A stretch of 64,000 nucleotides of DNA from Rhizophagus irregularis (lineage: Eukaryota > Glomeromycota > Glomeromycetes > Glomerales > Glomeraceae). The notes below the pieces were generated by a model that made no database searches, was not told the origin of the DNA, and worked only from the letters and a program-made list of their open reading frames with translations. Within the stretch, counting starts at the first letter, position 1. Each line of letters begins with the position of its first letter. Position numbers and translations under genes: made by a program. The stretch covers positions 1,844,001-1,908,000 of the forward strand of contig NC_089451.1 of assembly GCF_026210795.1 (NCBI RefSeq), in the 5' to 3' direction. Below, piece after piece: positions 3,002-50,860 of the stretch.

Positions 3002-3742
3002 GGATGTGCCAGAAATCACGTAATAATGCTCCTAACCCCCCTACCTACCATGTGATTGAATTCTGATTGGCTAAAAAAATACATATAATATATAATATAT
3101 TATATTAATATATATATATATTATAATCCAATTAGTTTGCTATCTAATAATCCAATTTGCATAAACTTTTTTTTTGTTTTGTAGCCCCATTTATGCTTTA
3201 TAAAATAAAAAAAATTTCATTGAAATTGGACTGCTAGATGGTGAAATAATTGCAAAAAAGCTTATTAATAAATAAATTATTATATATTATATATTATATT
3301 ATAATACAATTATTTCACTATTCAATAATCCAATTTACATAAATTTTTTTTTGTTTTATAGACCTCTTTATGCTTTACAAAACAAAAAAAAATTCATTAA
3401 AATTGAACTGCTAGAGTAAGTTAATTGCAAAAAAGCTTCTTAATAAATAAATTACTATATATTACATATATATTATAATACAATTATTTTACTATTCAAT
3501 GATTCAATTTGCATAAACTTTTTTTTATTTTGTAGCCCTCTTTATACTTTATAAAACAAAAAAAAATTCATTGAAATTGGACTTTTAGATGGTAAGATAA
3601 TTTCAAAAAAACTTCTTAATAAACAAATTATATATTATTTATTATAAAAGATATACTATTATCATAAAAGGTATATTGTGTCACCTGATTGCAGGACCTA
3701 ACCCCACCCACCTACTAAATCACGTAATTTCTGGCATGTCCC
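3002..3742. mobile_element. MITE with GGAYRTGCCAGAAATYACGT ends and internal triplication
   Basis: The left end GGATGTGCCAGAAATCACGT matches the reverse complement of the right end, GGACATGCCAGAAATTACGT. Both sides continue with a C-rich 'taaccccacccacctacc' box. The centre holds about three copies of a 175-bp unit containing 'ttgtagcccYYtttatgctt' and 'tcattgaaattggactgctag'. Short CTAA repeats flank the element, but the target duplication is not clean. Non-coding. Confidence 0.7.
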
Positions 3743-6943: not shown

Positions 6944-8016
6944 CTAATAAAATGCAGTTTTTGAAAATTTATTATATAAATAAAATAAAACATAAGAAAA
7001 GTAGACTTCAGCAATAAATTGCAACTACCATTTTATAAAAGTCATATATTAATAAAAAAATTTTTTTTAAAAAAAATTACATTTGATTTATATTATAATA
7101 ATTCAGGCTGGTATTATCATAATACATAAAGTCAGCTCAAATTATCATAAGTTTTGGCTAATATATTTTGTTTCAAATTGGGCTGATTATATGAAAATTA
7201 TGCAATTTCAAATGCTTATAACTTTTTACATAGATTTTTTTTTAAAAATCTGACTGGTAATTTATAGAGCTTACCTCAAAAAATAAAGTTACCAGTTTAT
7301 TTTTTTTAATTGTATTTTTTTTAAAAAGTTGAAAAATTTTTAAGTATTACTACATTTTTATTATTAAGTATAAACTTCTGACACCATAGTAATAAGAATT
7401 TATTTATAATTGCATCAGCTATTTTTTAATATTATTTATTTATTTTTTTGTAAATATTGAAATTTTATTTTTAATATTTGCATATAATGTATTATTATAT
7501 ATAAAACTTAATAAATAAATATAATTTAATATAATTATACTATTAATTTTTTTATTTAATCTTTAATATAAAAAGTTACAGTAGTTTTTAAATAAAAAAA
7601 TTTATTTCCTATACTATTACAAATTTCTTTTTTTATAAAATTTTAAAGTATAGAATTAACTATATTCTTCACTTACTAATCATTTAACTATTTTCTTAGT
7701 GGAAGTTTCTGAAGGAAAAGTTTGAGCTTTCTTATTTGAGTGATTGTAGAATACTTTTTATGTTGTTTGTTAACTTCAAGAGGATTCTTTTAAAAACTTA
7801 AATGGACATTTAACTCCTTACTTTTGAAAGATTTTACTAGTTTACTAAAGCTTTTCAAATGTGAACCTATACTTTTTTCTTTTTCAATATTTAAAATCAT
7901 ATATATATTTTATTGTAAAGTAATAGGCAGTAACTAGTTAATAATTAATATATATATTTTGTTTTAGCAAAAAGTTAATAAAATTTCTCAAGAATATAAA
8001 TTAGCAACAATTACAT
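6944..8016. other. AT-rich spacer
   Basis: About 1.1 kb of AT-rich DNA with homopolymer runs. I see no gene, RNA or defined element. Confidence 0.55.
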
Positions 8017-8940
8017 CAGTAAATTTATTAGAGTGCAGAACTGCAGCAATCTGCAATTTTTACAGATTGCTGCATTTTTTTTACAATTTTTAGTAAAAAT
8101 CTGCACAATATTGCAAAATGCAGTTTCCATATTTTTTTAACAAAAAAACAACAAAAAATCTGCAATAATCTCCAAAATTGCAGATTTATCAAATATTCCA
8201 AATAAAAATCTTTGGAGATTTTCAAAGTTTTTTATTTTATTTTAATAAACTTTGCAAGAAACTTTTATATTATTTCATAGTTTAAAATTAAACTTTAGTA
8301 TTATACTATCAACTTTTTCTCTTCAACATCCTTTCACCCTTTCCTTTTCTCTCATTCTTCCGTCAGTTTTCTGACAAGTTTTGCACGCAATTTTTGCATT
8401 GTAAAACAAATTTTATATATATTTTTTTGTAAAAAATGTTAATGTTTCTTTTTTTTTGTAGATTCTGTTAAATATTTCAAATCAGAACGGTAAATTTCAA
8501 AAATGGTAAGTTTTGCAATGTTATGTAACATTGCAAAACATTTTTTTGTATTTTTTTTTACAAGAACCATCTAAAATTTTTTACTTTTTTTTGTAAATTC
8601 AAGTATTTCTTTTGGTTTGGAAACTTTAAAATAATGACTTTCAAAGTAGTAAATTTCACAACATTATATTAGTTATAAAGCTTAGTTTTTTTTTTTGTTT
8701 GAGAAATATTATACTGACATTTCTATCTCTTTTTTTATAGTTTTAAGTATTTCAGCCTTGTGAAATTCAAAATGGTAAAAAAGACAATTTTGAAATAGTA
8801 AGTTTCGCTTAGTTGCAACTTGCAAAGCTTAAAAAAATTTTTTTAAGAAACTTTATACTAACGTTTCTCTTTTATTTTTTGTAGGTTTGTTTTAGCTTGA
8901 AGCTTCAAAATGGGGGATTTTAAATGGTAAGTTTTGCAGG

Positions 8941-10174
8941 ATTCTGGACATCACATATATAACTTACATTTGAGTTTTAGCAAATTCAATTAAAATTAGG
9001 TTAAACTTATAATTTTAGATAGAACAAATTGATTGAAAATTAATTAATAATCATACTTATGAATTTTTTAGCAAATTGTATTAATTTTACAAAGTCATAT
9101 TTTATATTTGAGCAAATTGGTATTTTTTTTAAATTTAACTTTTTTTTTTTTTAACTTTTATGAATAATATTTTTAAAAATATTGGTTTTAAAATCTGAGT
9201 TATATTTTGGCCAAAATTAAGTACAATTCTGGCTAAAATTAAGCATAATGCAGACCAAAAACTATCCAATTAGTTTCACAATATTTTATTTTTTAATAAT
9301 TATTTATATTTAATTTATTATTTTTATTAATTATTATTTTATCTATAATTTGCATATTTTTAATTATAAATTATAAAAATTGGCAGTTTAATTTATATTA
9401 ATTATTTATTTTTTATTGATAATAAAAAAAAAGATTGTTAATTTTGGTAAATTGACAATTAAATTTATTTTCTAATTGATACTATTTACACAATTATGCA
9501 AATGTAGTTATACCTACTGGATAGCAAATTTTATATGTATTTATTTATCTATTTCTAGGAAATTTTGCAGTAAAAATTAACTATTAATTATACTATAATG
9601 GACTGATTTAAAAATTTGAGTAATTCAGAAAGATTTGCATTTTCAAATGAAAAAAACTTTCTTTTAATTTATTTGTAATCTCAATATTATTTTTCAAGTG
9701 TAATAGTAATAGTTCTGAAGCTTTTTAAAATTCAATTATTTTTTAAAATCTTTTAAAATGAAAAAAAAAACTAAGTGAAAGAAAAATAAAATATAATAAT
9801 AAAATAAACTATATTAAATTCACGATATACTATAAAACACTTATTATTGTATAAATGGCAGGAGATAAATCAATTATGAAGGCCGATCATGTTCCAATTC
9901 TAAGTAAAATTTTACTTATTTCTAATTAGCCAGGAAATAAGTAATACTTACTGATTTACAAATAATTTGAATAAACTGAAATATATTTTATTAACAAATT
10001 TAAACCTATATTATTTAAAATTTTACTATAACTCATATTTTGAGTTTTAGTAAATTAGTATAGATTTAAAATGTGATAATTTGATTTTTAGTAAATTAGG
10101 TCTATTTTAATGAGAGCAAAAAATGCTTAAATTTATGCAGATCAATTATGAATTATATATATGATGTCCAGAAT
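8941..10174. mobile_element. Insertion with ATTCTGGACATCA inverted ends
   Basis: Left ATTCTGGACATCA and right TGATGTCCAGAAT are perfect inverted repeats. The segment interrupts an intron-like unit: 'gtaagttttgca' precedes it and 'tagttttgtaacg' follows it, giving a possible 8-bp duplication GTTTTGYA. That size would suit a hAT element, which is an inference. The interior is AT-rich, with several boxes reading 'gagttttagcaaatt', and has no coding region. Confidence 0.65.
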
Positions 10175-11646
10175 TCTAGTTTTGTAACGTTTTAATGTTG
10201 CAAAACTTCAACTTTTTTCTTTGAGAAATAACAATATTAACGTTTCTCTTTTGTTTTTTTGTAAGTTTCAGTATTCAAAGATTTGAAACAATACCACTAA
10301 CATCTGCCACCTGTCGATAAACAAAGTCTCTGCTTTTATTATAATTGTTCTCAATGAAACATTAACATATTTGTACTTGGTTTCAATTTATATTTAGTAC
10401 TTAACTTTTAAACTGTGATAGCTTTCATCGCAAAGTTTTATCCATATTCTAACTTCCAAACTTCAATAGTTCTTGTTACGAAAGTTTATATTCAATTCAT
10501 TTTAAAAGAATTGTTCAATAAATTTTACTTATATTTATGTATTCTTCTCTCATATAATAATATATACTTTCCAATTAATAGCATCCTTACGTGCAGACGT
10601 TTCACATATATCAAATAAAAATGTACTTTTTTATCATAAGAAAATAGTATAAAAAGAATTAAAATAATTAAAGGATGTATTAAAATGAATATTTTTATTA
10701 ATTCACAGTTATTTTGAGTTATTCTCAACTACTGAATTCTGGTCAAATTCCACCTCTTTTTATAGTTTTTAAAATCTGATTTTACAAAAATATTCTGTAG
10801 TTTAATATTTCATTTTTTAATATTTTGTAATCTAATATTTTGTAATTTAATGTTATTCTTTAATCTGTTACTCTTTTAATCTATTATTATTTTTCAAATC
10901 TGTTATTCTGTTATTTTTTCTAATGTTATTCTTTCGTCTTTAATCTATAAATAGATATTACATTATAGATATTACATCATATTACGTGACCCATCTATTA
11001 CATCATACCACATGATCTATTATCATGTGACCTATCTATTCAGTATATTATTTATCCATATCACGTGATTACCTTGGTATTTATGGTTATAACGGATATA
11101 TAGTTAGTTTTACAACATCTTGTTGTGAAACTGTAATTTTTTTTATTTTATTAAAAATATTTCTAATGTTTTTCTTTTTATTTTTTTGTAAGTTTTGGTA
11201 CTCTAACAATTCCCAAAATGGCAAAAGAGTGAGTTTTTCAACATTTTATTATGAAACTCTAATTTTTTTGATTTATCATTAAGAACGTTTACTAAACAAC
11301 ATTCTTTTTTTTTATAGAGAATAGCTTTTTAGGCAAAATAGAAATAAGATAATAATCCGAAAATAAAAAAAATAATTTTTTTTTAATATTTTTCATTAAA
11401 ATCGTTTACTGACGTTTTTTTAGTTTTTTATAGAGAATGGCTCCCTGAGTGAAATGGACATAAAGTAAGCTGAGAAAAGTGATTTTATTGTTTTTTTTTT
11501 ATTTTTTTATTAAGAATGTTTTGCTAACGTTCTTTAATACTTTTTTTTAGAAATGGCTTTCTGAACCATTTAAAGACAAAATGGATGTGAAGTAAGCTAG
11601 AGGAAGTATTTTTTGTTATTTTTTTAATTTTTTTGTAAATTTCAGT

Positions 11647-11890
11647 TAAGGTTGCTTGCCGAAATCTAGGGGTTTAGGCAAGATGGCATTTCGCCAAAAA
11701 GTGAAATTCTGCTGAAACTATATTAAAGTTATATTAAAAAACTGGCGAAACTTTGGAAAAAGGTGAAACTGCCGAAACTTATTATAAATGCTGAAACTGC
11801 TGAAACTCTGCCAAAACTATAATAAATCTATAGTAAAATTTTGACGAAACTAATCATAGGATTTTAAAGAGGTTTAGACAAGCAACCTTA
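11647..11890. mobile_element. 244-bp hAT-like MITE inside the intron-like array
   Basis: The ends TAAGGTTGCTTGCC and, reverse-complemented, TAAGGTTGCTTGTC are inverted. Flanking 8-mers ATTTCAGT (11639-11646) and GTTTCAGT (11891-11898) look like a target duplication with one change. The interior repeats 'gccgaaact' and 'ctgaaact' boxes. A similar end, TTAAGGTTGCTTG, occurs near 35813. Confidence 0.72.
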
Positions 11891-13682
11891 GTTTCAGTAC
11901 TCTAAAGCTTTTTGAAACAAGTAAATGGTAATTTCACAACATTTTATTGCGAAACTTTAAATTTTTTTATTTTTGTAAAAAAATATTTCTAATATTCTTT
12001 TATTCTTTTTTTTTAGATTTTTGGTTTTCCGGTTTCCATCTGAACGGAATTTTCAACATGATAACAATAAGTTTTGTAACAAATTTTTTGTTATGAAACT
12101 TATACTTTTTTATTTTTATAAAGTTAAAGAACATTTTTAACGTTCTTTATATTTTTATTTTATAGGTTCTGGTACTTAAGTCTGAAACGGATATTAAAAG
12201 AGTAAGTTTCGCAACATCTTATTGTAAAACTTTATTATTTTTTTTTACTTTTATAAAAGAACGTTTCTAACGTTCTTCTTTTAATTTTTATTTTGTAGGT
12301 TTCAATACTAAAGAATCCAAAACTGATAAATGGTAAATTTCACAATGTCTTGTTGCAAAACTTTAATATTTTTTTTTATTTTCTTTAAAAAACTTTATAC
12401 TAACATTTCTCTTTTATTTTTTTGTAGATTTTGGTACTCAGGGATCTGAAACTAATAAATGGTAAGTTTTGCAACGTCTTATTACAAAACTTTATAATTT
12501 TTTTTTATCTTTTATAAAAGAACATTTCTAACCTTCTTTCTTCTTTTTATAGAGACATCAAGCTTCTTTGGACGAACCAAATTTGAAATGTATGTAAGGA
12601 ATGAATTTCAAAATTTTGAAGGTATTTACCTTCAAAACTAATTTTTTTTTTATTTAACAAAACGTTTACTAATGGTTTGTTTGTTTTTTCTTTTGTAGTT
12701 TTAGGTTTTTTCAGTTGCCTTCTAGATAAAAGAATTTCAAAGTAAATAAATACAGGTACCTTCAAAATTCTTTATTAATTTTATTTGATAAATATTAACT
12801 AGCATTCGTTCTTATTTTTTGTAAGTTCAGAACACTACTGAAGTCCATTTTGAAGATAACTTAAAAAAAAACTGTTTTTTTTGTTATTTTTTTTTATTTT
12901 ATTTAGCAAAATGTTACTAACGTTTCAATTTCTTTTTCTTTTATAGGTTTTCTGGTCACCACTTAGATTGGATAGAATTTTGAAGGTAAAATTTAAAATC
13001 ATTTTATTTTTATTTTTTATTTAAACAAACATTAACTAACGTTTTAATTATTACTTTTTGCAGATTTACAGCTTCTAGATAAAATTTCAAATGTAAAATG
13101 CCTTCGAAATTCTTTCATATTTTTTTTTTATTTAGCAAACGTTTTCTAACGTTTCATTTTTTTTGTAGATCATCATCATTTCCAAAAAGAATTTTGAAGG
13201 TAAAACTTCAAAATTCTTTATTGTTTTTTTTTGCTATTTTAATTTGCAAAATGCTTACTAACGTTTCAGTTATTTTTTTATTGTAGATCCAGGATGTCAC
13301 CAAACTTTCATTTCAAAGGTAAAAAAAACCTTTAAAGTTTTTTTAATAAATTATTTGATAAACGTTAACTAACATTTGTATTTCCTTTTTTTTCAGGTAA
13401 AGGAAGTCAAAAACGAGTTCTAGACTTCCATATCAAAGGTAAAACTTTCAAAAAAAAATTTTTTAATTAATTTATTGACAAATATTAACTAACATCCATA
13501 CTTCTTTTTTTTAAGTAAAGGAAGCCAAAAGATAAATTCTGGACTCCTATATCAAAGGTAAAACCTTTAAAAATTATTTTTTATTAATTTATTTGATGAA
13601 TATTAATAATGTTCATATTTCTTTTATTTTAGTTTCTAGGTTTCCATTTAAAGAACTTTAAAGGTAAATACTTGACTTTGAA

Positions 13683-15382
13683 GTAGAGTTTTGAACTGGA
13701 TTTATTTTTTAAATCCGAATTAGATACGAATAAATCTGGTTTCCTTCGGTTCAATCCAGATATAATAAATCCGGTTTCCTTCGGTTAATCCGGATATAAT
13801 AAATCCGGTTTAATCCAGATATAATAATTCAGATATAATAAATCTGGTTTAATTTCAGCCAGTATTATTTATTAAATTTTAAATAAAACGAATAATTTAT
13901 GCAGAGGCATTGCAAAGCACCCCTATTACGTTATTTACATGGTAAGTTTTGATTAGTTATTTGTTTAATAATATTTCTTTTGCAATGTTTCTAACAAACT
14001 GAAACTTTTTTTTTTCACCATTAGACACGAATCCAGGCTGCTAAGTGGGGAAGGGAGGATTGGACACAAGCCCTTTAGACGCGAACCATGGGAAGGAGTT
14101 AGGGAAGGGAAATTTCATTTTTGACATAATTCAGTTTTTATATAATGTAACAGTTCTGTTCATATTGATTTTTACAATCGTAATGTTAGTAAATTTTACA
14201 ATTTTTTTTTGTTAATAACATGCATTTTTCTTTATTTAATTAATAAACCTAAAACAAATACATAATAGCAACATTCTAAGACATATATTCACTAACTAAA
14301 TCATAGTTAAAACTGAATCCAACTAAGCTACTGATAATTAACTTGATTATTAATTCTATAATTAAAGAAAAACTTATTTCCCCTCTTTGTTTATGCTATA
14401 AAACCTTCCTTAAAAAAAGCTATAAAGAAGAAATAACTAAAACTATATTAAAAAAATTTTTACAAGAATAAATAAAATCAAAAAAAAAATTAATAAAGAT
14501 GAGAAGGGAGTAAAAAAAGATGATAGAGAATGAAAGAAAGTAAAAATAAGCAAAGGAAATGCAAAGAACAAAAAAAAGTAAAAAGGAGATAAAAAAAGTA
14601 ATAGGTAACAAAAAAAAGTAAAAAATGGAGCATAAAAATGAAAAAAATATAATAATAGGAAGACAAAAAGAGTGAATAAAATAATTAAAAACAAATAATA
14701 ATTGACTGACACCACCCATTAAAATAAAGAGAAAAAGAAAAAAAACTGGTTAGTATCTTTTAAATAAAGGAAAGCAATAGAAAACAAGAAAGACAGAGTA
14801 GCAGACATACCTTAAATAAAAATCTTACCCTAAATTGTTTTAAAAAATATCAAGTTACAAAAAGCAAAAAATAAAAAAAAGAAGGCTTACCATTTTTACC
14901 CAATCAATAAAGGGAATAAATATCAAAAAATATCAAATTTGAAAAGGGGTAGGTGAATTCGGGCAGAAGTTTCATACACAGCCATACACTGATACGTAAT
15001 TGATCATCATAATTCTGGCCAAATTATAAATTTGACCAGAATTATAATTTCCATTTTAGGAAATTGATGTTACACAAATTCGAAAAAGGAAATTTTCATT
15101 TTTTTGGAAAAATCAAAATTTGTGGAACGGCTATCACCAAAAAAGGATATGATAGGCATAGCCGTAGTTATAATTCTGGCCAAAATTATAATTTGGCCAG
15201 AATTACTGCCGATCAATAATAAAACTGAATAAAACTAAATATAATAAATCCGGATAAAACAAATAAAACCGGATATAATAAATCCAGATGAAACCGAAGC
15301 AACTGAATCTCTCCGGTTTTAAATCCGAATCAGGAGAATCCAGATTTAAATCCGAATGTCGAAGGTCAGATCCAAACTCTAC
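13683..15382. mobile_element. 1.7-kb element with GTAGAGTTT ends and 6-bp TSD
   Basis: The ends GTAGAGTTTTGAACTGGAT and, reverse-complemented, GTAGAGTTTGGATCTGACC are inverted, and perfect TTTGAA repeats flank them (13677-13682, 15383-15388). Both arms carry AATCCGGTTT/AAATCCGAATT subterminal repeats. The centre has an intron-like motif (GGTAAGTTT near 13940, CTAAC, CACCATTAG near 14025), a purine-rich tract (14420-14880) and a hairpin family built on AATTCTGGCCAAATTAT (15009-15200). No coding sequence is credible. Open frames on the minus strand at 14420-14719 are low-complexity F/L/S runs. Confidence 0.75.
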
Positions 15383-16457
15383 TTTGAAGTTCTTTTTTTT
15401 TACTTTTTTTAATGATCATTATACTAATGATCATTTTTTCTTTTATATTTAGGTCCCGAATGCTGGATTATATATTTTGAAGCTGCTTGCTTCAAAATTT
15501 TTTTCCATTTGTAGGTCTCCATTGTTTGTTAAATAATATTTAAACTATTAACAACATATAAATTTGTAGTATAAAATAATTAGTGTAGTTTAATTGATTT
15601 GTATATATAATTTGTAATACTTTTATTAAATAAATTGACACTAGTTAATATTAAAACAATAGCAGATAACTAAATTTGAGTTGTTTTGAAAAATTTTAAA
15701 AATTTATTTTTAAAATTTTGTGCAGATTTTTTAACATTTGCAAATCTGCATAGATTTTATTAAAAATTTTTTTCTGATGTGTATTGACATCTGTGCAGAA
15801 ATTTAAGTTGGAGATCTTTGCAGATTTTTATCCTAAAAAATTTACTGATATATTGTATTATTATAACTTTATAAGTTAAATATTCTGATATATTTTAAAT
15901 ACAACCAACTCTCTTTATAGTTACACATTTGGGACAAGCCATTTTCCGTGATTATAAAAAGAAGTGTGACTATATGGGATCTTTGCAATAGAAAAGTACG
16001 AAATTCAAAAAAAATTTTAATTTTACTTTATATACTAATTATGTTTTTTTTACTAAAATAAATGCAAATTTAATATTAATTCAATTTTTGATATTTTTTG
16101 AGTTTCATATCTTTCTATTGCAAAGACCTCATATATAAAACATACATAAAAATTAAATTTTTAATACATTTTATTATACTTTATTAAAAAATATATGTAT
16201 ATATTATTAAATTAGCAACCAGTAATCATAGAAAGATGTAACACAGCTTGTTAGAATTGCCTCATTGAGATGAATTGAATGGTGGTAGTTTCATCTTTCT
16301 ATGATCATTACATATTTAAATTATACTTAAATGATATTTTATTTTTGCCTATTTCAGTATATTTTAAGTATAAAATAAAATTTTAAATCTATTTTAAATA
16401 TATTTTAGCAAAATATTTTTTAGTCAATTAATTTTGTATAGTGATTTATATTTAAAA

Positions 16458-22496: not shown

Positions 22497-24866
22497 TAGG
22501 GATGGGGGTTAATTAACCGTTAATTTTGTTAGTTATGATTGATTTAAAATGGTTAATTAACCGTTATTTATAATTAGCCAATCAAAATGCAGAATTTAAA
22601 TCATGTGATTAAATGATAATCCATTATTTTGTTACACAATTAAATATTAATTAATATAAATATTGATTAAATCTATGATCTACATATTGCATGATCTTTT
22701 TTTTAAGATAAATTTTTTTTAAAAAAACACTTTTTTTTTGCAAATTTATTGTTCATTATCATGGTAAAAAAAAAGGGAACTGTTTGGAAACATTGGACAA
22801 TAATTACTGAAGCAGAAAGTAATGAAGAAAGTAGTAGGTCTAAGAAAAAAACACATCCTTCTGTACGTTGTAATTATTGTTCTAAAGTTTTTGAACAAGG
22901 TACAGCTAAAAGAATGCAAGTTCATCTTAATGATAGTTGTCCTAGAGCTCCAGAAAGTGCAAAAACAAAGAAACAACAAATTCCTGAACTATTAGAAACT
23001 TCTGATGCTACTACTTCTACTTTTATTCCTACAGTAAAAACATCAAAAAAGCATTTAAAAAATACAACAATTGAGAATTTTGTTGATCGTATGAGTGAAG
23101 AAGAACAAGATACTCTTGAAATTTTACTAGCTCAAGCATTATTTGCTGCTGGAGTTCCTTTTTCTTTTCTTGAAAATAATTATGTTATTCAGTTTTTTCA
23201 ACAATTACGTCCAGCATTCAAATTACCTAATCGAAGAAAACTTGCTGATGAATTACTTGATGATGTTTTTGATGAAGTTAAAGCTGAATGTAATGAACAA
23301 ATTTTACAAGCTAAATCTCTTACAATGGTTTCAGATGGTTGGTCTAATATTAATCGAGAATCAGTTCAAAATTTTGTTATTTGTACTCCAAAACCATTAT
23401 TCTTTGATGCTATTTATTCTGGTGAAGAATCTCATACAGCTAAATGGGTTGCAGATGAAATTATTAAACAAATGGAAATTGTTGGTATTAATAAATTTTC
23501 AGCAGTTATTACAGATACAGCTAGTGTAATGAAAGCAGCTTGGGGAATTATTGAAGATAGTTATCCAAGTATTGTTTGTTTAGGATGTAATTCTCATGTA
23601 ATGAATCTTTTAATTAGTGATATTTTAAAGATTGATCAAATTAAATCTGTTGTTGAAAATGCAAAAAAGTTGGTCAATTATTTTAAGGCACATGTACAGG
23701 CAACAGCTAAATTGAAACGTATTCAAAAAGAAAATTATTCTAAAGAAATTGCATTGGTTTTACCAGCACTTACAAGATGGGTAACACATCTTGCTTGTTT
23801 TCAATCACTTCAAAATTCAAGAACAGCACTTGAACAGGCTTTAATGGATATAAGAATTCGTCAAAATATGGATTTAACTTTAAGAGCTCATATTTTATCA
23901 GATGAGTTTTGGGAAGATTTAGATATAATAACAAAAATTATGGAACCAATGGTTTCAGCATTAAAGTTATTTGAATCAGATATTTCAATTCTTTCAAATG
24001 TTTATTCATATTTCAAAGAAGTAATGAATCAAATTAATCAAATAGATTGTAATTTTTCTGATAAACTTCAAGAACTTATTGCAAAGCGATGGGAATATAC
24101 TTATCATCCTATTATGATAACAGCTTATATGTTAGATCCACAATTTTTGGAAAAAAGTAAAAATGATGAAGTTGAATCTATTGGTTATGTAGAATTTACA
24201 ACATTTGTAAATAAAAGATTTAATCAGGAAGAAGCAGTAGAATTATTTGCTGAATTGGTAAATTTTCGTAATAAAAATTCACCTTATGATAATGAAATTA
24301 TTTGGAAATCTGCTAATATTCTTAATTCATCTTTATGGTGGCAATCATGGCCAACTAGTAAACTTCAACAACTGGCTATTAAAATTCTCTCAATTCCTAC
24401 ATCTTCTGCAGCTGCAGAAAGAAATTTTTCTACTTTTGGTTTTATTCATAATAAAATTTGAAATAGATTGAAAAATGAACGTGTTAAAAAATTAGTTTAT
24501 ATTTATGGAAATCTTCGAATGTGTAATAGACTTGTAAAAATACAAAAAAAGAAACAGATTAGTAATTTTAATGAAAATGAAGAAGATAGTAATAATAGTT
24601 CTGATAATGAAAATAAAGAAGATGATAATAATAATAGTTCTGATAATGATAGTATATTTGGATTTGAAGCAAATGTTATTAATTTAGATGATGAAGAATA
24701 AATAAAATATATTAAAATTTTATAATATTTAATAAATTATAAATTTATTTTAACTTCCTTAAAATTATATATACAGGTTATTTATGGGTTAATTAACCGT
24801 TAACTAACCGTTAATTAACCGGTTAATTAACCAAATTCATAACTAACGGTTATTTTACCAACCCTA
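22497..24866 (+). mobile_element. Complete hAT element with TIRs and 8-bp TSD
   Basis: The ends are TAGGGATGGG and, reverse-complemented, TAGGGTTGG. Perfect 8-bp duplications GATATGTT flank the element (22489-22496 and 24867-24874). Subterminal regions on both sides carry several copies of GGTTAATTAACCGTTA-type palindromes, the kind of site hAT transposases bind. The element is 2370 bp and contains a single transposase frame with one nonsense codon. Intact ends and a perfect duplication suggest recent insertion. Confidence 0.95.
22761..24701 (+). pseudogene. hAT transposase, interrupted by one in-frame TGA
   Basis: This frame encodes a hAT-superfamily DNA transposase. I place the start at the ATG at 22761; an upstream TTG-initiated extension is not needed. 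Residues about 5-62 form a BED-type zinc finger (VWKHW, then RCNYCSKVF, then HLNDSCP). The RNase-H-like catalytic region follows, with conserved segments MVSDGWSN, AVITDTASVM, CLGCNSHVMNLL and LTRWVTHLACF. The C-terminal hAT dimerisation region lies at about residues 520-590 (SLWW, then SAAAERNFSTFGFIHNKI). Codon 567 (24459-24461) is TGA where CGA would continue the conserved stretch, so this is a likely C-to-T change. The frame then stays open to TAA at 24699-24701 and ends in an acidic, Ser/Asn-rich tail. Only this one lesion was found in about 646 codons. Confidence 0.93.
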
Positions 24867-42969: not shown

Positions 42970-45149
42970 TTAAATTTTAGATTTTGCATTATGGTAAAAA
43001 TTCTTTTTTTTGTTTTTTTTTTGTATTATTTTATGTAAATTCTTTTTTGACTCATGATCGGACGATTCTACAATATTCATTTCTAAGGAGTTTTGAAAAG
43101 ACCGTTCTGAAGAAGCCTAACAAACAAAGACGTCGCGTACGCCTACTAAGAAAGGGACGAAGTGACGTCTGTGATCAAAATTTTTGACGATATTTCCAGC
43201 AAAGCTAATAGTAAATATTTATTAATTTATTATTTTTTATACTTGAATCTTTATTACAAATATTAAAAAAAAAAATCGTTTTTTTTTATTATAGAGTGAT
43301 AGGATAAAACGAAGATGAAGATGCACATATTTTCTTAGAGGAGTTCTTGAAAAAGAGTGCATATCAAGTATTAAAAACGCGAAATTTTTTTTTTTTTTTT
43401 TTGATGTTTATACTTTATATTTGTTATCTGACCTCTTATCATTGGATTGTATTTATTCCTTTTTTTATTTATCAGTTACAGCACTATTTTGTATTGAAAT
43501 ACTGGACAATAGATGAAAGTTCTCTGAAAAGAGCATTACTGATTTTCTAGAGAGTGTAAATGGTTCAAGAGACTTTAAAAGAGGTGTGTATTTTTTTATT
43601 TGCAAAGTGGGTAACTTCCTAAGCTAAAATTAGAACAGATAACTCATTGAGTCGGGGAGTTCACAAATTTTACTTAGGAGGATACTGGATTTATTTGTTT
43701 GGGTTGGGTAAGGGTGAGCAAAGTGGGTAATTCCTATGAAATTACCTGCTTTTTCTTTTTTATTTTTATTTTTATTTTTATTTTTTTATTTTCTTTTTTT
43801 TATTTTTTTTTATTTCTCTTGTTCACTTGATAACCAACTCAAGCAAATAACATCCTACTTTGTTATTGATAAAGTCTGCTAATTCTAAAGGAGAAATTGG
43901 CTATGTCTTCTTTACCATTAAATAAAAATTTAGCATACTTTTAATAATTTTTCTTTCTTATAATAGGTAAATGCAAAGATTTACAATCACTGGTAAAATG
44001 AAGATTTCCTAGAGAAATTTTTGAAAAAGAATGCATATCAAGTGAAAATTTTTTTTTATATTTATACTTTATATTTGTTATCTGATTTCTTATTATTGAA
44101 TTGTATTCAATTATTTATCAATTACAGCATTATTTTGTATTGAAATACTGGACAACAGATGAAAATTCTCTGAATGGAGCATTACTGATTTTTAGATAAG
44201 TGTAAATGGCTTATTAAAAGACTTTAAAAGAGGTGTGTATTTTTTTATTTGCAAAGTGGGTAACTTTCTAAGTTAAAATTAGAACAGATAACTCATTGAG
44301 TCGGGGAGTTCACAAATTTTACTTAGGAGGGTACTGGATTTATTTGTTTGGGTTGGGTAAGGGTGAGCAAAGTGGGTAATTCCTTGAAATTACCTGCTTT
44401 TTTTTTTATTTTATTTCTTTTTTATTTTATTTTTATTTTTATTTTTTTATTCCCTTTTTTTCTTTTTTTTTTATTTTTTTTTATTTCTCTTGTTCACTTG
44501 ATAACCAATTCAAGCAAATAACATCCTACTTTGTTATTGATAAAGTCTGCTAATTCTAAAGGAGGAATTGGCTATGTTTTCTTTACCATTAAATAAAAAT
44601 TTAGCACACTATTAATAATTTTTCTTTCTTATAATAGGTAAATGCAAAGATTTACAATTACTGGTAAAATGAAGAAATTTCCTAGAGGAATTTTTAAAAA
44701 AGAGTGCATATCAAGTGAAAATTTTTTTTTATATTTATACTTTATATTTATTATCTGATTTCTTATTATTGAATTGTATTTAATTATTTATTAATTATGG
44801 CATTATTTTGTATTGAAATACTGGATAACAGATGAAAATTCTTTGAATAGAATGATACTGATTTTTAGATAAGTGTAAATAGCTTATTAAAAGATTTTAA
44901 AAGAGGTGTGTATTTTTTATTTGCAAGTGGGTAACTTTCTAAGCTAAAATTAAAACAGATAACTCATTGAGTTAGAGAGTTTACACTGGTTAAAATAGTC
45001 CAAATCGGCTAGAAATTGGATGTCTGATTTTAGGTTGAATTTGGTAATAAAGATGGCTGAATTGTCAATCCAAAAAAAGTTTCAATTGGCAGGTTGATCG
45101 ATATCAATCAGAATGTCTGAATTGTATCTGGATTGCTTAGTATTTTTAA

Positions 45150-45435
45150 TCCGAATTGTTTAAAAAATATATTCATAAATTTACTGAATTGCAGTGAATT
45201 TATTCTGAATTATGATAAATTTTGATAAATTGCGATAAATTTTAATCTGAATTACAGTAAATTTTATTCTAAATTGTAATCTGAATTGCGGTAAATTTTC
45301 TATTCTGAATTGTGGTAAATTTTATTCTGAATTGTGTCTGAATTGCAGTTAATTTTATTCTGAATTGTATCTGAATTGCAGTAAATTTTATTCTGAATTG
45401 TATCGCAAATTGCAGTAAATTTTATTCTGAAATTT
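45150..45435. repeat. Minisatellite, TCTGAATTGCAGTAAATTTTAT units
   Basis: Variants of 'tctgaattgcagtaaatttt' followed by 'attctgaattgta' repeat about eight times with a period of roughly 25-45 bp. This is subterminal repeat DNA of the CACTA-like element. Non-coding. Confidence 0.75.
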
Positions 45436-45719
45436 AAAATATTACATATACATATAAAACAATTTCACCCAAAAATCAATATTCCAGTTGCCTGAAAAAA
45501 TGAAAAAAACTTGAAAGGTGAAGTAGCCGTTTAAAATCACCTTACCAAATTTCGAATTTCTATGTGTCTAAAAGATCTCAGAATAATGTTAAAAATGTTT
45601 AATTACATAAATAATAAAATACTTTTTTATAAAAGTTTTGAATTTTTTGTTTTGAAACTAACCTGGAAATCCAGTATACGTTAAATTCCTTAATTCCCAT
45701 TCATTTCTACAAATTGGAG

Positions 45720-47222
45720 ATGATTTTCCTACAAAAAAAAAGAAAAAATATTAAAATAATCAAAACATTACCTGTAGGATGGCAAATTGAAGCTGATTTC
45801 CCTACAAAAAAAATAATAAAATATAATAAAAAAATGTTAAATTAAACGTTTTTATTAAGTTTCGTCAAAAAATTTCAAAAATCAAAACTTTACTTGCGGG
45901 ATTCCAGTATCCAAATTGGAGCCAATTTCCCTGCAAAAAAAAAATAATAATAAATAATTAAAAAATATTAAAATAAACGTTTTTTTATTAAGTTTCAAAA
46001 ATACGAAACTTTACCTATAGGATTGGCCAAATCAAAGCTGATTTCCTATAAAAATATAAAAAACGTTAAAAATAAACATTTTTTATGAAAGTTTCAAAAT
46101 TAAAAACTTTACTTATAGAATTTGCCTAATCAGAGCTGATTTCCTATAAAAAATATAAAAAATGTTAAAAATAAACATTTTTTATGAAAGTTTCAAAGTT
46201 AAAAATTTTACCTATAGAATTGGCCAATTCAGAGCCAATTTCCTATAAAAAAAATATAAAATGTTAAAATTAACATTTTTTTTATTAAGTTTCGAAAATA
46301 CGAAACTTTACCTGTAAATTTGGCCAAATCAGAGCCCTGCACTTTGGTGTTCTGGACTTACAAAATTAAGAACGAATGTTAGTTAACGTTCGTTAAAATA
46401 AAATAAAATAAAATTTTTTTTTTCAAAGTTTTACCTTTGAAATGCCACCTAGAAAGCTGAAATCCTAAAAAAAAAAAAAAATTGAAATATTAGTCAACGT
46501 TTCATTCAAATAAAAATACAAAAAAAAATGCGAATTTCAAAGAGATACCTTCAAAATTCCATCCAGATATATGGAAACTGGAGAGCAAAACCTAAAAAAA
46601 AAAGAAAATAATGAAACGTTAGTTAACGTTTCGTTTAAATAAAAAAAGAAAAAAAATCAGAATTTCGAAGAGATACCTTCAAAATTCCATTTAAACATAT
46701 GAAAACTGAAAAGCCAAAAACCTAAAAAAAAAAGAAAATTGAAACGTTAGTCAACGTTTCGTTCAAATAAAAAAAAATAAAAAATCGAAGAAGTACTTTC
46801 AAAATTACATCCAGACATACGGAAACTGAAGAGCCGAAAACCTAAAAATAAAAGAAAATCAAAACGTTAGTCAACGTTTCGTTCAAATAAAAAAAGAAAA
46901 AAAAATCAAAATTTTAAAGAGTACCTTCAAAATTCCATCCAGACATACAGAAACCGGAGAGCAAAACCTAAAAAAAAAGAAAATAATGAAACATTAGTCA
47001 ACGTTTCGTTCAAATAAAAAAAGAAAAAAAAATTGGAATTTCGAAGAGGTACTTTCGAAATTCCATCCAGACATATGGAAACTGAAAAGCCGAAAACCTA
47101 AAAAAAAAGAAAATTGAAACGTTAGTCAATGTTTCGTTCAAATAAAAAAAAAATAAAAAATCAAAATTTTGAAGAGTACCTTCAAAATTCCATCCAGACA
47201 TACAGAAACTGGAGAGTAAAAC
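45720..47222 (-). repeat. Second array of intron-like units, minus strand
   Basis: Read on the minus strand, pseudo-exons start at 47222, 47097, 46967, 46841, 46721, 46592 and 46464 (spacing 120-130 bp), followed by more diverged units to about 45720. Each unit is GACTAACGTTTC, a T-rich tract ending TTTTTTTAG, a 43-45 nt pseudo-exon with the core TGTCTGGATGGAATTTTGAA, and a donor GGTACTCTTC or similar. The pseudo-exons are clearly the same family as the later units at 12.9-13.7 kb (GAATTTTGAAG before the donor). Lengths of 43 and 45 do not keep frame. An open frame at 47010-47201 is a by-product. Confidence 0.8.
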
Positions 47223-47295
47223 CTAAAAAAAAAGAAAATAACAAAACGTTAGTTAACGTTTCATTCAAATAAAAAAAGAAAAAAAAATTGGAGTA

Positions 47296-48332
47296 CAGTC
47301 AACTCCTTCTATAGTCACTCCCGTTATAGTCACATTCTACTATATAGTCACACCTATCCTCAAAAATCATATTAAAAAGAACCGTTTATAATCACAATTA
47401 TATAAAGAATATATCAAATAACTTGGCATCTAATAATCGTACAAAGATGTACCATAGCTTGTTAGAATCGTCTCACTGAGACGAATCGAATGGTGGTAGT
47501 TTTATCCTTTTACGATCACTGGCTGATGAGTTATTCAGCAAAATGGTAAGCATCGGCATTATTATATTCCTTGATTTACGTTTACTGCGCCATTTAACAT
47601 TTTGCTAAATATCTCGGTACCTAGTGATTGTAAAAAGACGATTAATAGCTCGTTGGAATCGCCTCATCAAGACGAATTGAATGGTAATAAGTTCATCTCT
47701 CTGTGATCAATATTGACGGAGTTACTACTTAAAAACTATTTAATATTTTTTAATTTCAAAAATTGATCTAGTAATTGGATTTCGATGTATTTTATACCAT
47801 TAGATTCGTCGCATCAAGACGAATCGAATGGTAGTAAGATCGTCTCTTTAGAATCAATATTGGCAGAGTTACTATTTAAAAACTATTTAATATTTTTTAA
47901 TTTCGGAAATTGATCTAGTGATTGGATTTCGATGTACTTTATACCATTAGATTCATCGCATCAAAACGAATCGAATGGTAGTAAGATCGTCTTTCTAGGA
48001 TCAATATTGGCAGAGTTATTACACAAAAACCATTAATATTTTTTTAATTTCGGAAATTAATCTAGTGATTGGATTTCGATGTATTTTATACCATTAGAAC
48101 CGTCTCATCAAGACGAATTGAATGGCGGTAAGATCATCTCTCATCTCTCTACGATTAATATTGGAGGATTTACGATACAATAAAGTTTTAAGTATAATTT
48201 TGGCCAAAATTATGTTAATTTTTGGCCAGAATTATGATATACTAATATAAGAAATTTTTTATATAGTCACATCTCTTTATAATCACCAAATATGGACTGT
48301 CCCAAATGTGTGACTATAAAGAGAGTTGACTG
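47296..48332. mobile_element. 1.0-kb Tc1/mariner-type MITE
   Basis: TA (47294-47295, 48333-48334) flanks inverted ends: CAGTCAACTCCTTCTATAGT and, reverse-complemented, CAGTCAACTCTCTTTATAGT. The family also forms the ends of 15902-21273. The interior contains five direct copies of a cassette reading 'ttagattcgtcgcatcaagacgaatcgaatggtagtaagatc' (near 47470, 47655, 47800, 47945, 48095). It is nested in the CACTA-like element. Confidence 0.87.
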
Positions 48333-48359
48333 TATATCAATAATATGAAAAGATTCAAC

Positions 48360-49140
48360 CATAAATCATTAACCAATATGCCACAAATCAGAAATAAATG
48401 CCGATTTGTAATTTTAACTAATATTAGGCAAATTTTAGGCTGATTTGCCATTTGTCTGATTTTTTTTTTGATTTTTAACTAGTATCAATTAGTCAATCAA
48501 ATATGATCATTTTCTGCTGAATTTTTGTTGAATTTTTATTGAATTTTAATAATGTATTAAATTTCCATAAATCAGAAGTGCTGATTTGTAATTTTAGCTA
48601 ATTTTAGGTAAATTTTAGGTTGATTTACCATTTTGTTTGATTTTTTTTTAATTTTAACCAGCCATCAATCAAATATGAGTGATGATTTTTTTGCCAAATT
48701 TTTATCAAATTTTTATTGAATTTTTATTGAATTGTCAATTTTCCATAAATCTGAAGTATCATATTTGAATATTGGGTAAATTTTAGGTTGATTTGCCATT
48801 TTGTCTGATTTTTTTTTTGATTTAATACGTCAATCAGCCGTCAATCAAATATAATGATTTTTTGCCAAATTTTTATTGAATTTTTATTGAATTTTTATTG
48901 AAGTGTCAATTTTTCATAAATCAGAAGTGCATATTTGAATATTGAGCAAATTTTAAGTTGATTTGCCATTTGTCTATTTTTTTTTTTGATTTTAACTAGC
49001 ATCAATCAGCCGTTAATCAAATATGATGATCTTTTGCTGAATTTTTATCGAATTGCCTGATTGGCATCAATCAGATGTGCTGATTTATAATATTAGCCAA
49101 TTTTGGTCTGATTTTTAGCCGATTTTTCATATGTCCGATT
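48360..49140. repeat. Subterminal tandem repeat of the CACTA-like element
   Basis: About four or five degenerate copies of a 120-170 bp unit with the boxes 'ataaatcagaagtgctgattt', 'ttttaggttgatttgccattttgtctga', 'tcaatcaaatatgatgat' and 'aatttttattgaatttttattga'. Non-coding. Confidence 0.7.
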
Positions 49141-50860
49141 TTTTTGATTTCGACCAGTGTCACAAATTTTACTTAGAAGGGTACTGGATTTATTTGTTTG
49201 GGTTGGGTAAGGGTGAGCAAAGTGGGTAATTCCTATGAAATTACCTGTTTTTCTTTTTTATTTTTATTTTTGTTTTTTTATTTCTTTTTTTATTTTTTTT
49301 TATTTTTTTTATTTTTCTTGTTCACTTGATAACCAACTCAAGCAAATAATATCCTACTTTGTTATTGATAAAGTTTGCTAATTCTAAAGAAAGAATTAGC
49401 TATGTCTTCTTTACCATTAAATAAAAATTTAGCATACTATTAATAATTTTTCTTTCTTATAATAGGTAAATACAGAGATTTACAATTACTGGTAAAATGA
49501 AAAAATTTTCTAAAGGAATTTTTGAAAAAGAGTGCATATTAAATATTAAAAATGCAAAAAAATTTTTTTATGTTTATATTTTATATTTGTTATCTGATTT
49601 CTTATTATTGAATTGTATTTAATTATTTATCAATTACAGCATTATTTTATATTGAAATACTGGACAATAGATGAAAGTTCTCTGAAAAGAGCATTACTGA
49701 TTTTCTAGAGAGTATAAATGGCTCAAGAAACTTTAAAAGAGGTGTGTATTTTTTTATTTGCAAAGTGGGTAACTTCCTAAGCTAAAATTAGAACAGATAA
49801 CTCATTGAGTTGTGAAGTTTACAAATTTTACTTAGAAGGATATTGGATTTATTTATTTGGGTTAAGTAAGGGTAAGCAAAGTGGGTAATTCCTATGAAAT
49901 TACCTGCTTTTTATTTTTTATTTTATTTTTTATTTTTATTTTTTATTCTTTTTTATTTTTTTTTTTATTTTTTTTATTTCTCTTGTTCACTTGATAATCA
50001 ACTCAAGCAAATAACATCCTACTTTGTTATTGATAAAGTCTGCTAATTCTAAAGGAGAAATTGGCTATGTCTTCTTTACCATTAAATAAAAAATTTAGCA
50101 CATTATTAATAATTTTTCTTTCTTATAATAGGTAAATATAGAGATTTACAATTACTGGTAAAATGAAAAAATTTTCTAGAGGAATTCTTGAAAAAGAGTG
50201 CATATCAAGTATTAAAAATGTGAAAAAATTTTTTTATATTTATACTTTATATTTGTTATCTGATTTCTTATTATTGAATTGTATTTAATTATTTATCAAT
50301 TACAGCATTATTTTATATTGAAATACTGGACAATAGATGAAAGTTTTCTGAAAAGAGCATTACTGATTTTCTAGAGTGTATAAATGACTCAAGAAACTTT
50401 AAAAGAGGTGTGTATTTTTTTATTTGCAAAGTGGGTAATTTCCTAAGCTAAAAATAGAATGGGTAATTTATTGAGTCAAGGAGTTCACAAATTTTACTTA
50501 GGAGAGTACTGGATTTATTTGTTTGGGTTGGATAAAGATGAGTAAAGTGGGTAATTCCTATGAAATTACCTGCTTTTTCTTTTTTATTTTAATTTTTTTA
50601 TTCCTTTTTTTTTCTTTTTTTATTTCTTTTGTTCACTTGATAACAAACTTAAGCAGATAAAATCCTACTTTGTTATTAGTAAAGTCTGCTAATTTTAAAA
50701 GAAGGAATTAGCTATATCTTCTTTACTATTGATAAAGTCTGCTAATTCTAGAAAAGGAATTGGCTATGTCTTCTTTATCATTAAATAAAAATTTAGCATA
50801 CTATTAATAATTTTTTCTTTTTTATAATAGGTAAATACAGAGTTTGAAATTCTATTTAGC

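Follow-up and report, generated by a model that had tools for sequence, protein, structure and literature searches.

A predicted intron-dense, apparently noncoding passenger of DNA transposons in Rhizophagus irregularis

Near the start of a 64-kb stretch of the Rhizophagus irregularis genome (assembly GCF_026210795.1, contig NC_089451.1, positions 1,844,001 to 1,908,000; hereafter the window, numbered from its first letter), the forward strand carries a tandem array of intron-like units. The reading we favour, to which we give about an even chance, is that the array is the noncoding, very intron-dense cargo of a decayed non-autonomous DNA transposon copy, that it is predicted to be transcribed and spliced, and that splicing itself would be under selection. 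The units consist of exons of ~25–55 nt and introns of ~75–90 nt, and in each intron one palindrome contains or adjoins the donor while another contains the CTAAC branch site. Transcription and splicing of the array unit are inferences from sequence. When the assembly from which the window comes was searched with its DNA, many related arrays were among the matches listed, at loci labelled here L followed by a number, and related arrays are held by two types of carrier.

The evidence that bears most directly on splicing comes from two subfamilies of array elements, A and C. Exon and intron limits called in a copy of one subfamily were transferred to copies of the other, in both directions, with four A and four C copies (8 of the 13 fetched). 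The GT of the splice sites was identical in 598 of 610 comparisons, the AG in 594 of 610 and the last three exon bases in 903 of 915. The branch box scored 851/980 and the arms of the branch stem 2982/3332, with identities of 0.78–0.80 in intron interiors and 0.75–0.76 in exon interiors. Other GT and AG dinucleotides of the same arrays were kept at 0.657 and 0.653, compared with 0.958 and 0.975 for the splice sites. Under a stricter control, in which CpG contexts were excluded for GT and flank identity had to be at least 0.6 (mean flank identities 0.82 and 0.83–0.84), 326/339 splice GT were kept vs. 534/802 others, and 306/314 splice AG vs. 786/1134 others. Counted as alignment columns kept in every comparison, the figures were 17/19 vs. 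28/65 for GT (Fisher p 4e-4) and 17/19 vs. 35/93 for AG (Fisher p 3e-5); nineteen splice columns for each dinucleotide are few, and the copies within a subfamily are related. Since splice GT and AG are kept far above other GT and AG, and exon text and frame are not kept, the splicing signals look to be under selection and the exon text free. A first-pass annotation of this DNA had proposed that the splice signals are better kept than decaying repeats would allow, and at equal flank identity they are; the result that it named as refuting, splice signals conserved no better than the rest of the unit, is not what the two subfamilies gave.

When called exons were joined, the longest stop-free run was no longer than with permuted exon order in any of the 17 elements tested (P 0.18–0.96). 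The same was found in three of three elements of family D (L029, L030 and L032; P 0.51–0.92), a further set of arrays with the 3′ end ...CCTGTG. These results agree with the earlier statement that the short exons keep no frame. The test covered 17 of 20 elements and exons shorter than 100 nt; L008, L009 and L013 were left out, as fewer than six exons had been called in each. In several copies exon calling catches some of the exons only, and the number called ranges from 2 to 24 per copy. Exon lengths are distributed over all three modulo 3 classes. The array thus appears to be noncoding now, and it may have had some coding past. A gene like those of the SP7-like effectors was considered and rejected. 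These genes of R. irregularis encode proteins with a signal peptide and have one conserved intron before the repeats (PMC11333574, in part). Tandem repeats, the species and a splicing theme are common to both, but the frames in the array are no longer than with permuted exon order.

The palindromes were examined in 32 non-redundant introns kept from a set of 94 (L017 excluded). Donor segments fold with z < −1.5 in 25 of the 32 and branch segments in 24, compared with none of eight ordinary introns of a Plavaka transposase element (z −0.5 to 1.6). Branch arms pair with their own partner at 7.86/10, compared with 7.20 for arms dealt out at random and at most 7.37 in 300 shuffles; the control, CTAAY elsewhere in the window, gives 5.71. 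For donor hairpins of the GTRAGTTT type the outer arms are fixed by the search pattern and the inner pairs alone were tested; these are Watson-Crick in 0.727 of cells vs. 0.490 dealt out (highest of 1000 shuffles 0.601). Among 15 such hairpins, those of one length among 42 distinct donor hairpins, 97.2% of cells pair, and two-sided changes occur in 17 cells vs. 6.4 in shuffles (0/500 as high). The palindromes are real and are kept as palindromes. They may matter in RNA or in DNA, and copying errors that perfect palindromes could be a source of the same pattern.

Within the window, splice-site weight matrices trained on other loci gave 14 acceptor-donor rows above threshold at 8380–15560 (+). 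Behind these rows stand 11 distinct donors, each with an acceptor 18–75 nt upstream, all within 8462–13682, and in 8 of the 11 units CTAAC lies upstream of the acceptor. A covariance model, R1, made from 29 introns of other loci, matched the window 30 times at E ≤ 1: 17 on the plus strand at 8634–15450, 11 on the minus strand at 45826–47317, one on the minus strand within the plus-strand array (12575–12641) and one on the plus strand at 47707–47794. Twenty-eight of the 30 fall in two clusters, each on the expected strand. From 8.4 kb onward the plus strand has the order branch box, T-rich acceptor ending AG, short exon and GGTAA-type donor. The tandem array of splice signals described in the first-pass annotation therefore stands as to order and strand, but it is partly decayed and interrupted, and the ~22 complete units reported were an overcount. 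Its limits, given as 8462–13682, were too narrow: the array extends to a presumed last exon at ~15515 (window 15400–15571 is 78% identical to L010:4941–5128), in an element that occupies 8014–15850. Nor is it an unbroken stretch, being interrupted by three insertions (Table 1). Among the eight related arrays examined, the ratio of observed to expected CpG is 1.56 in L015 and 2.1–2.6 in the other seven, vs. 0.89 in the plus-strand array of the window, which is the value of the whole window, and 1.43 in the window's minus-strand array. By this difference the plus-strand array, interrupted as it is, is an old copy that has lost the CpG excess, and a reading of it as a working unit is unsupported.

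The carriers of the arrays were recognized by their ends. L005–L010 and L015–L021 are alignable over ~4–5 kb with sharp stops and carry inverted terminal repeats, CATC[G/A]GGAAATTTTTT and its complement. Of the 14 copies in which both ends were seen, seven further elements included, 13 have a 2-bp target duplication; the exception is L009. With at most one mismatch, the terminal pattern has 79 forward and 69 reverse matches, and its reversed control none. L024 and L025 have both ends the same as the array elements, but bear frames on the opposite strand. In L025 a frame of 212 aa matches the Plavaka transposase (PF18759, E 2e-23); a shorter frame of L024 gave 0.00078, below the curated cut-off, and the single pieces of L022 and L023 that were searched gave no Plavaka match. 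Because of the CATC..GATG inverted ends, the 2-bp duplications and the L025 transposase with the same ends, we conclude that the array elements are, to judge by sequence, non-autonomous elements of Plavaka type. The earlier suggestion that a transposon had multiplied the array gains support from the inverted ends, the target duplications, the terminal pattern and the autonomous relative with the same ends. Lineage B of Plavaka (CMC/CMCT group) has CATCA..TGATG ends and 2–3-bp duplications (PMC12730594, in part). The elements resemble it in their 5′-CATC...GATG-3′ ends, 2-bp duplication and a transposase in an autonomous relative; unlike it, the array elements lack a transposase, and a noncoding exon array takes up their interior. 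Rhizophagus is named nowhere in the part of that Plavaka account used here. A Helitron, prompted by one end starting TC after A, was ruled out by the inverted ends and 2-bp duplications. Derivation of the array from the transposase element was also rejected: model R1 gave nothing below E 0.45 in L022–L025.

The window element itself fits the Plavaka type, because TA stands on both sides, its ends are 13/16 matches and similarity to other copies begins at 8012–8014. Its two ends are alike at 14/16 bases and each agrees with the family terminal repeat at 13/16, an end match that is weak on its own, as matches of this quality occur 6+2 times in the window. Its 5′ part is 87% identical to L006:6434–6746 over 315 bp and shows 75–79% identity, over stretches of ~70 bp, with the 5′ ends of L006, L007, L010, L016, L019, L021, L024, L027 and L028.

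Some further features of the Plavaka-type elements were seen. The first kilobase (L005:860–1816) is 92–94% identical between subfamilies A and C where fully aligned, vs. merely 76–77% for the array (L005:2351–4833), as if ends and array had separate histories. Between these two segments (L005:1816–2351) lies a fold-back insertion, a long inverted repeat within one array element. In L026:2250–3450, a Plavaka-ended element has another array type with exons around GTATCG, GTGAG donors and a strong palindrome after the donor, without a clear branch palindrome. A tRNA-like sequence lies antisense to the presumed terminal exon in L028:2929–2981 (−), with a T-loop and the B-box-like GGTTCGATTCC; its best Rfam match is tRNA-Sec (E 0.36, below gathering score). 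It occurs in some form in 16 of 16 Plavaka-type array elements (L005–L010, L015–L021, L026, L027, L028) and was found in none of L011–L014, L022–L025 and L029–L032. A tRNA in the array was considered as well; ARAGORN found none in five loci. Weak matches to miRNA families in L005, L024, L026 and L028 (E 4e-5 to 0.08, below gathering score) fall on inverted repeats.

The second carrier, family B, comprises L011–L014 and a minus-strand element of the window (49159–44984). Its ends are CACTGGTCGAAAT and its complement, and CAC..GTG ends are present in all four related loci and in the window copy. Its termini fit EnSpm/CACTA, for which PMC12730594 (in part) served as comparison. The likeness lies in the CACTG...CAGTG ends, by which family B is a candidate EnSpm/CACTA type; it differs in carrying a noncoding exon array. 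Two of five copies have a 3-bp duplication and three show none. By eye, exons of family A resemble those of family B. The exact unit pattern, a branch palindrome followed by a T-rich acceptor, has 72 matches vs. none for the reversed control; these matches are spread over 27 of 32 contigs and form 59 places with more than 10 kb between them, a lower bound.

In the most likely mechanism, splicing as such would be what selection keeps, since the splice sites are kept while exon text and frame are free. A promptly spliced transcript would pass as ordinary mRNA and would not feed silencing by small RNAs and CpG methylation. Activity would then last longer in elements with a well-spliced passenger. 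The palindromes could serve to keep the splice sites in hairpins, or they could be a feature at the level of DNA. Transposons of R. irregularis carry DNA methylation and small RNAs (PMC8647823, in part), and in Cryptococcus stalled spliceosomes have been cited as a trigger of small interfering RNA (PMC6643885, in part, citing Dumesic 2013). It is conceivable, although we incline to doubt it, that the arrays are selfish passengers of a new kind, noncoding cassettes for splicing carried by at least two unrelated-looking DNA transposon types, in which repeated splicing would be selected and the product would be irrelevant.

Several points weigh against the favoured reading. The anti-silencing step is a guess. 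Two of five covariation measures were not above shuffles (pairs 4 vs. 3.4; further types 7 vs. 8.4), and the copies are related, so cells are not independent. Donor arms in the mixed set of 32 introns pair with their own partner at 7.31 vs. 7.24 with others, and RNAalifold, applied to 29 of the 32 with three that have longer donor hairpins left out, predicted the branch helix alone. There is no wobble excess: GU+UG number 46 vs. 65 AC+CA at the outer branch-stem pairs (125 stems), and 18 vs. 38 at the pairs beside the branch site. Because G-U is no commoner than A-C among the departures, pairing in plus-strand RNA is not favoured, and a reading of the palindromes as RNA structures only is unsupported. 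Lastly, stop codons are rarer than in base-shuffled exons; the longest run has P < 0.05 in 7 of 17 elements, and L027 has 21 stop codons vs. 52.4 expected. A protein-coding microexon gene with a kept frame was rejected, this depletion being the one contrary sign. That the array is a decayed and amplified microexon gene that formerly encoded a repeat protein is improbable in our view. Besides the scarcity of stops, it is favoured by an exon G+C of 46% vs. 22% in introns and by L027 and L028, which contain runs of 42-nt exons that are open in phase, but it would not be expected from frames no longer than in permuted exon order, from exon lengths in every modulo 3 class or from exon text kept no better than intron.

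The lack of wobble excess would also suit an array acting as DNA, whose CpG-rich palindromes (AACGTT, TTCGAA etc.) bind a transposon or host protein and whose intron-like order is inherited from an ancestral gene. The compensatory changes suit DNA palindromes too, and so does the high CpG ratio of the related arrays. We nevertheless hold it to be distinctly unlikely, as it leaves unexplained why GT and AG outside the palindromes, AG above all, are 97% kept while their neighbours drift. Selection on the splicing signals could instead be combined with palindromes that are functionless and purely mutational, imperfect ones having been perfected by template switching. Compensatory changes without wobble excess are as this predicts, and by eye many palindromes also lie outside the array, e.g., in the terminal regions. 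Yet even where the exons of two arrays are unrelated, the palindromes recur at the donor and at the branch site, and they are missing from the eight ordinary introns, so that we regard this explanation as unlikely. A final alternative makes the hairpin introns precursors of small RNAs, as in mirtrons, or a source of double-stranded RNA feeding the silencing of competing elements. Each intron has one or two predicted hairpins, and small RNAs arise at transposon loci in R. irregularis (PMC8647823, in part). Against this, the window holds no known RNA family at the Rfam gathering score. The stems are 8–15 bp, and the usual Dicer substrates are longer. This alternative is very unlikely.

Multiplied near-identical introns with inverted repeats are known in fungi as introners, introner-like elements and symmetrical stwintrons (PMC8469720, PMC9860276, both in part). 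The introns described here share these properties. In contrast to introners they stand in tandem inside a transposon, between short noncoding exons, and have been studied in tandem arrays alone. No description of a comparable noncoding exon array was recognized among the open-licence papers searched. Non-autonomous Plavaka and EnSpm elements are already known; a splice-conserved noncoding exon array common to two carriers is new to us. About two thirds of the transposons of R. irregularis were unclassified (PMC11075540, in part), and one such group can now be named and given its ends and its carrier enzyme. Should selection act on splicing itself, these elements would allow the idea that splicing protects transposons from silencing to be tested directly. 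The palindromic donor and branch sites with matched changes form a natural series for the study of splice-site structure.

The features of the window are collected in Table 1. By eye, family D elements have a longer pyrimidine-rich tract at the place that corresponds to the one listed.

Table 1. Positions of the array, its carrier and associated features in the window
Feature	Position	Strand	Basis or remark
Degenerate non-autonomous Plavaka-type element holding the array	8014–15850	+	Ends, similarity to other copies
TA, 2-bp target duplication	8012–8013 (left), 15851–15852 (right)		
Pyrimidine-rich tract ahead of first recognized exon, promoter-like	8310–8366	+	By eye; putative function
Exon-like unit	8462–8489	+	Donor alternatively at 8506
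Exon-like unit	8741–8774	+	Weight matrices
Exon-like unit, CTAAC upstream	8885–8926	+	Weight matrices
Younger insertion, inverted ends	8940–10176		By eye
Dispersed short repeat within array	11643–11893		At least 34 near-full matches, ~90–97% identical
Exon-like unit, CTAAC upstream	12299–12332	+	Weight matrices
Exon-like unit, CTAAC upstream	12428–12461	+	Weight matrices
Exon-like unit, CTAAC upstream	12553–12621	+	Weight matrices
Exon-like unit, CTAAC upstream	12947–12985	+	Weight matrices
Exon-like unit, CTAAC upstream	13169–13199	+	Weight matrices
Exon-like unit, CTAAC upstream	13287–13318	+	Weight matrices
Exon-like unit, CTAAC upstream	13397–13438	+	Weight matrices
Exon-like unit	13640–13663	+	Weight matrices; alternative start 13633
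Younger insertion flanked by 8-bp CTTTGAAG copies (13676–13683, 15382–15389)	13684–15381		
Last array intron, past third insertion	15353–15450	+	Model R1, 46.7 bits, E 8.5e-6
Presumed terminal exon, start	15515–15560	+	Placed by comparison with L005; boundary by eye
Second array element, family B, CACTG...CAGTG ends	44984–49159	−	No target duplication seen in this copy
Second array	45772–47222	−	11 exon-like units above same threshold; 11 R1 matches at 45826–47317

Two neighbouring features lie outside these elements. At 3086–3646 the window has a third tandem repeat, of a different sequence type, with a 174-bp unit and acceptor-like and donor-like motifs. At 22707–24458 (+) lies a frame of 584 aa for a hAT-type transposase, in which DUF659, hAT dimerisation and BED finger domains are present.

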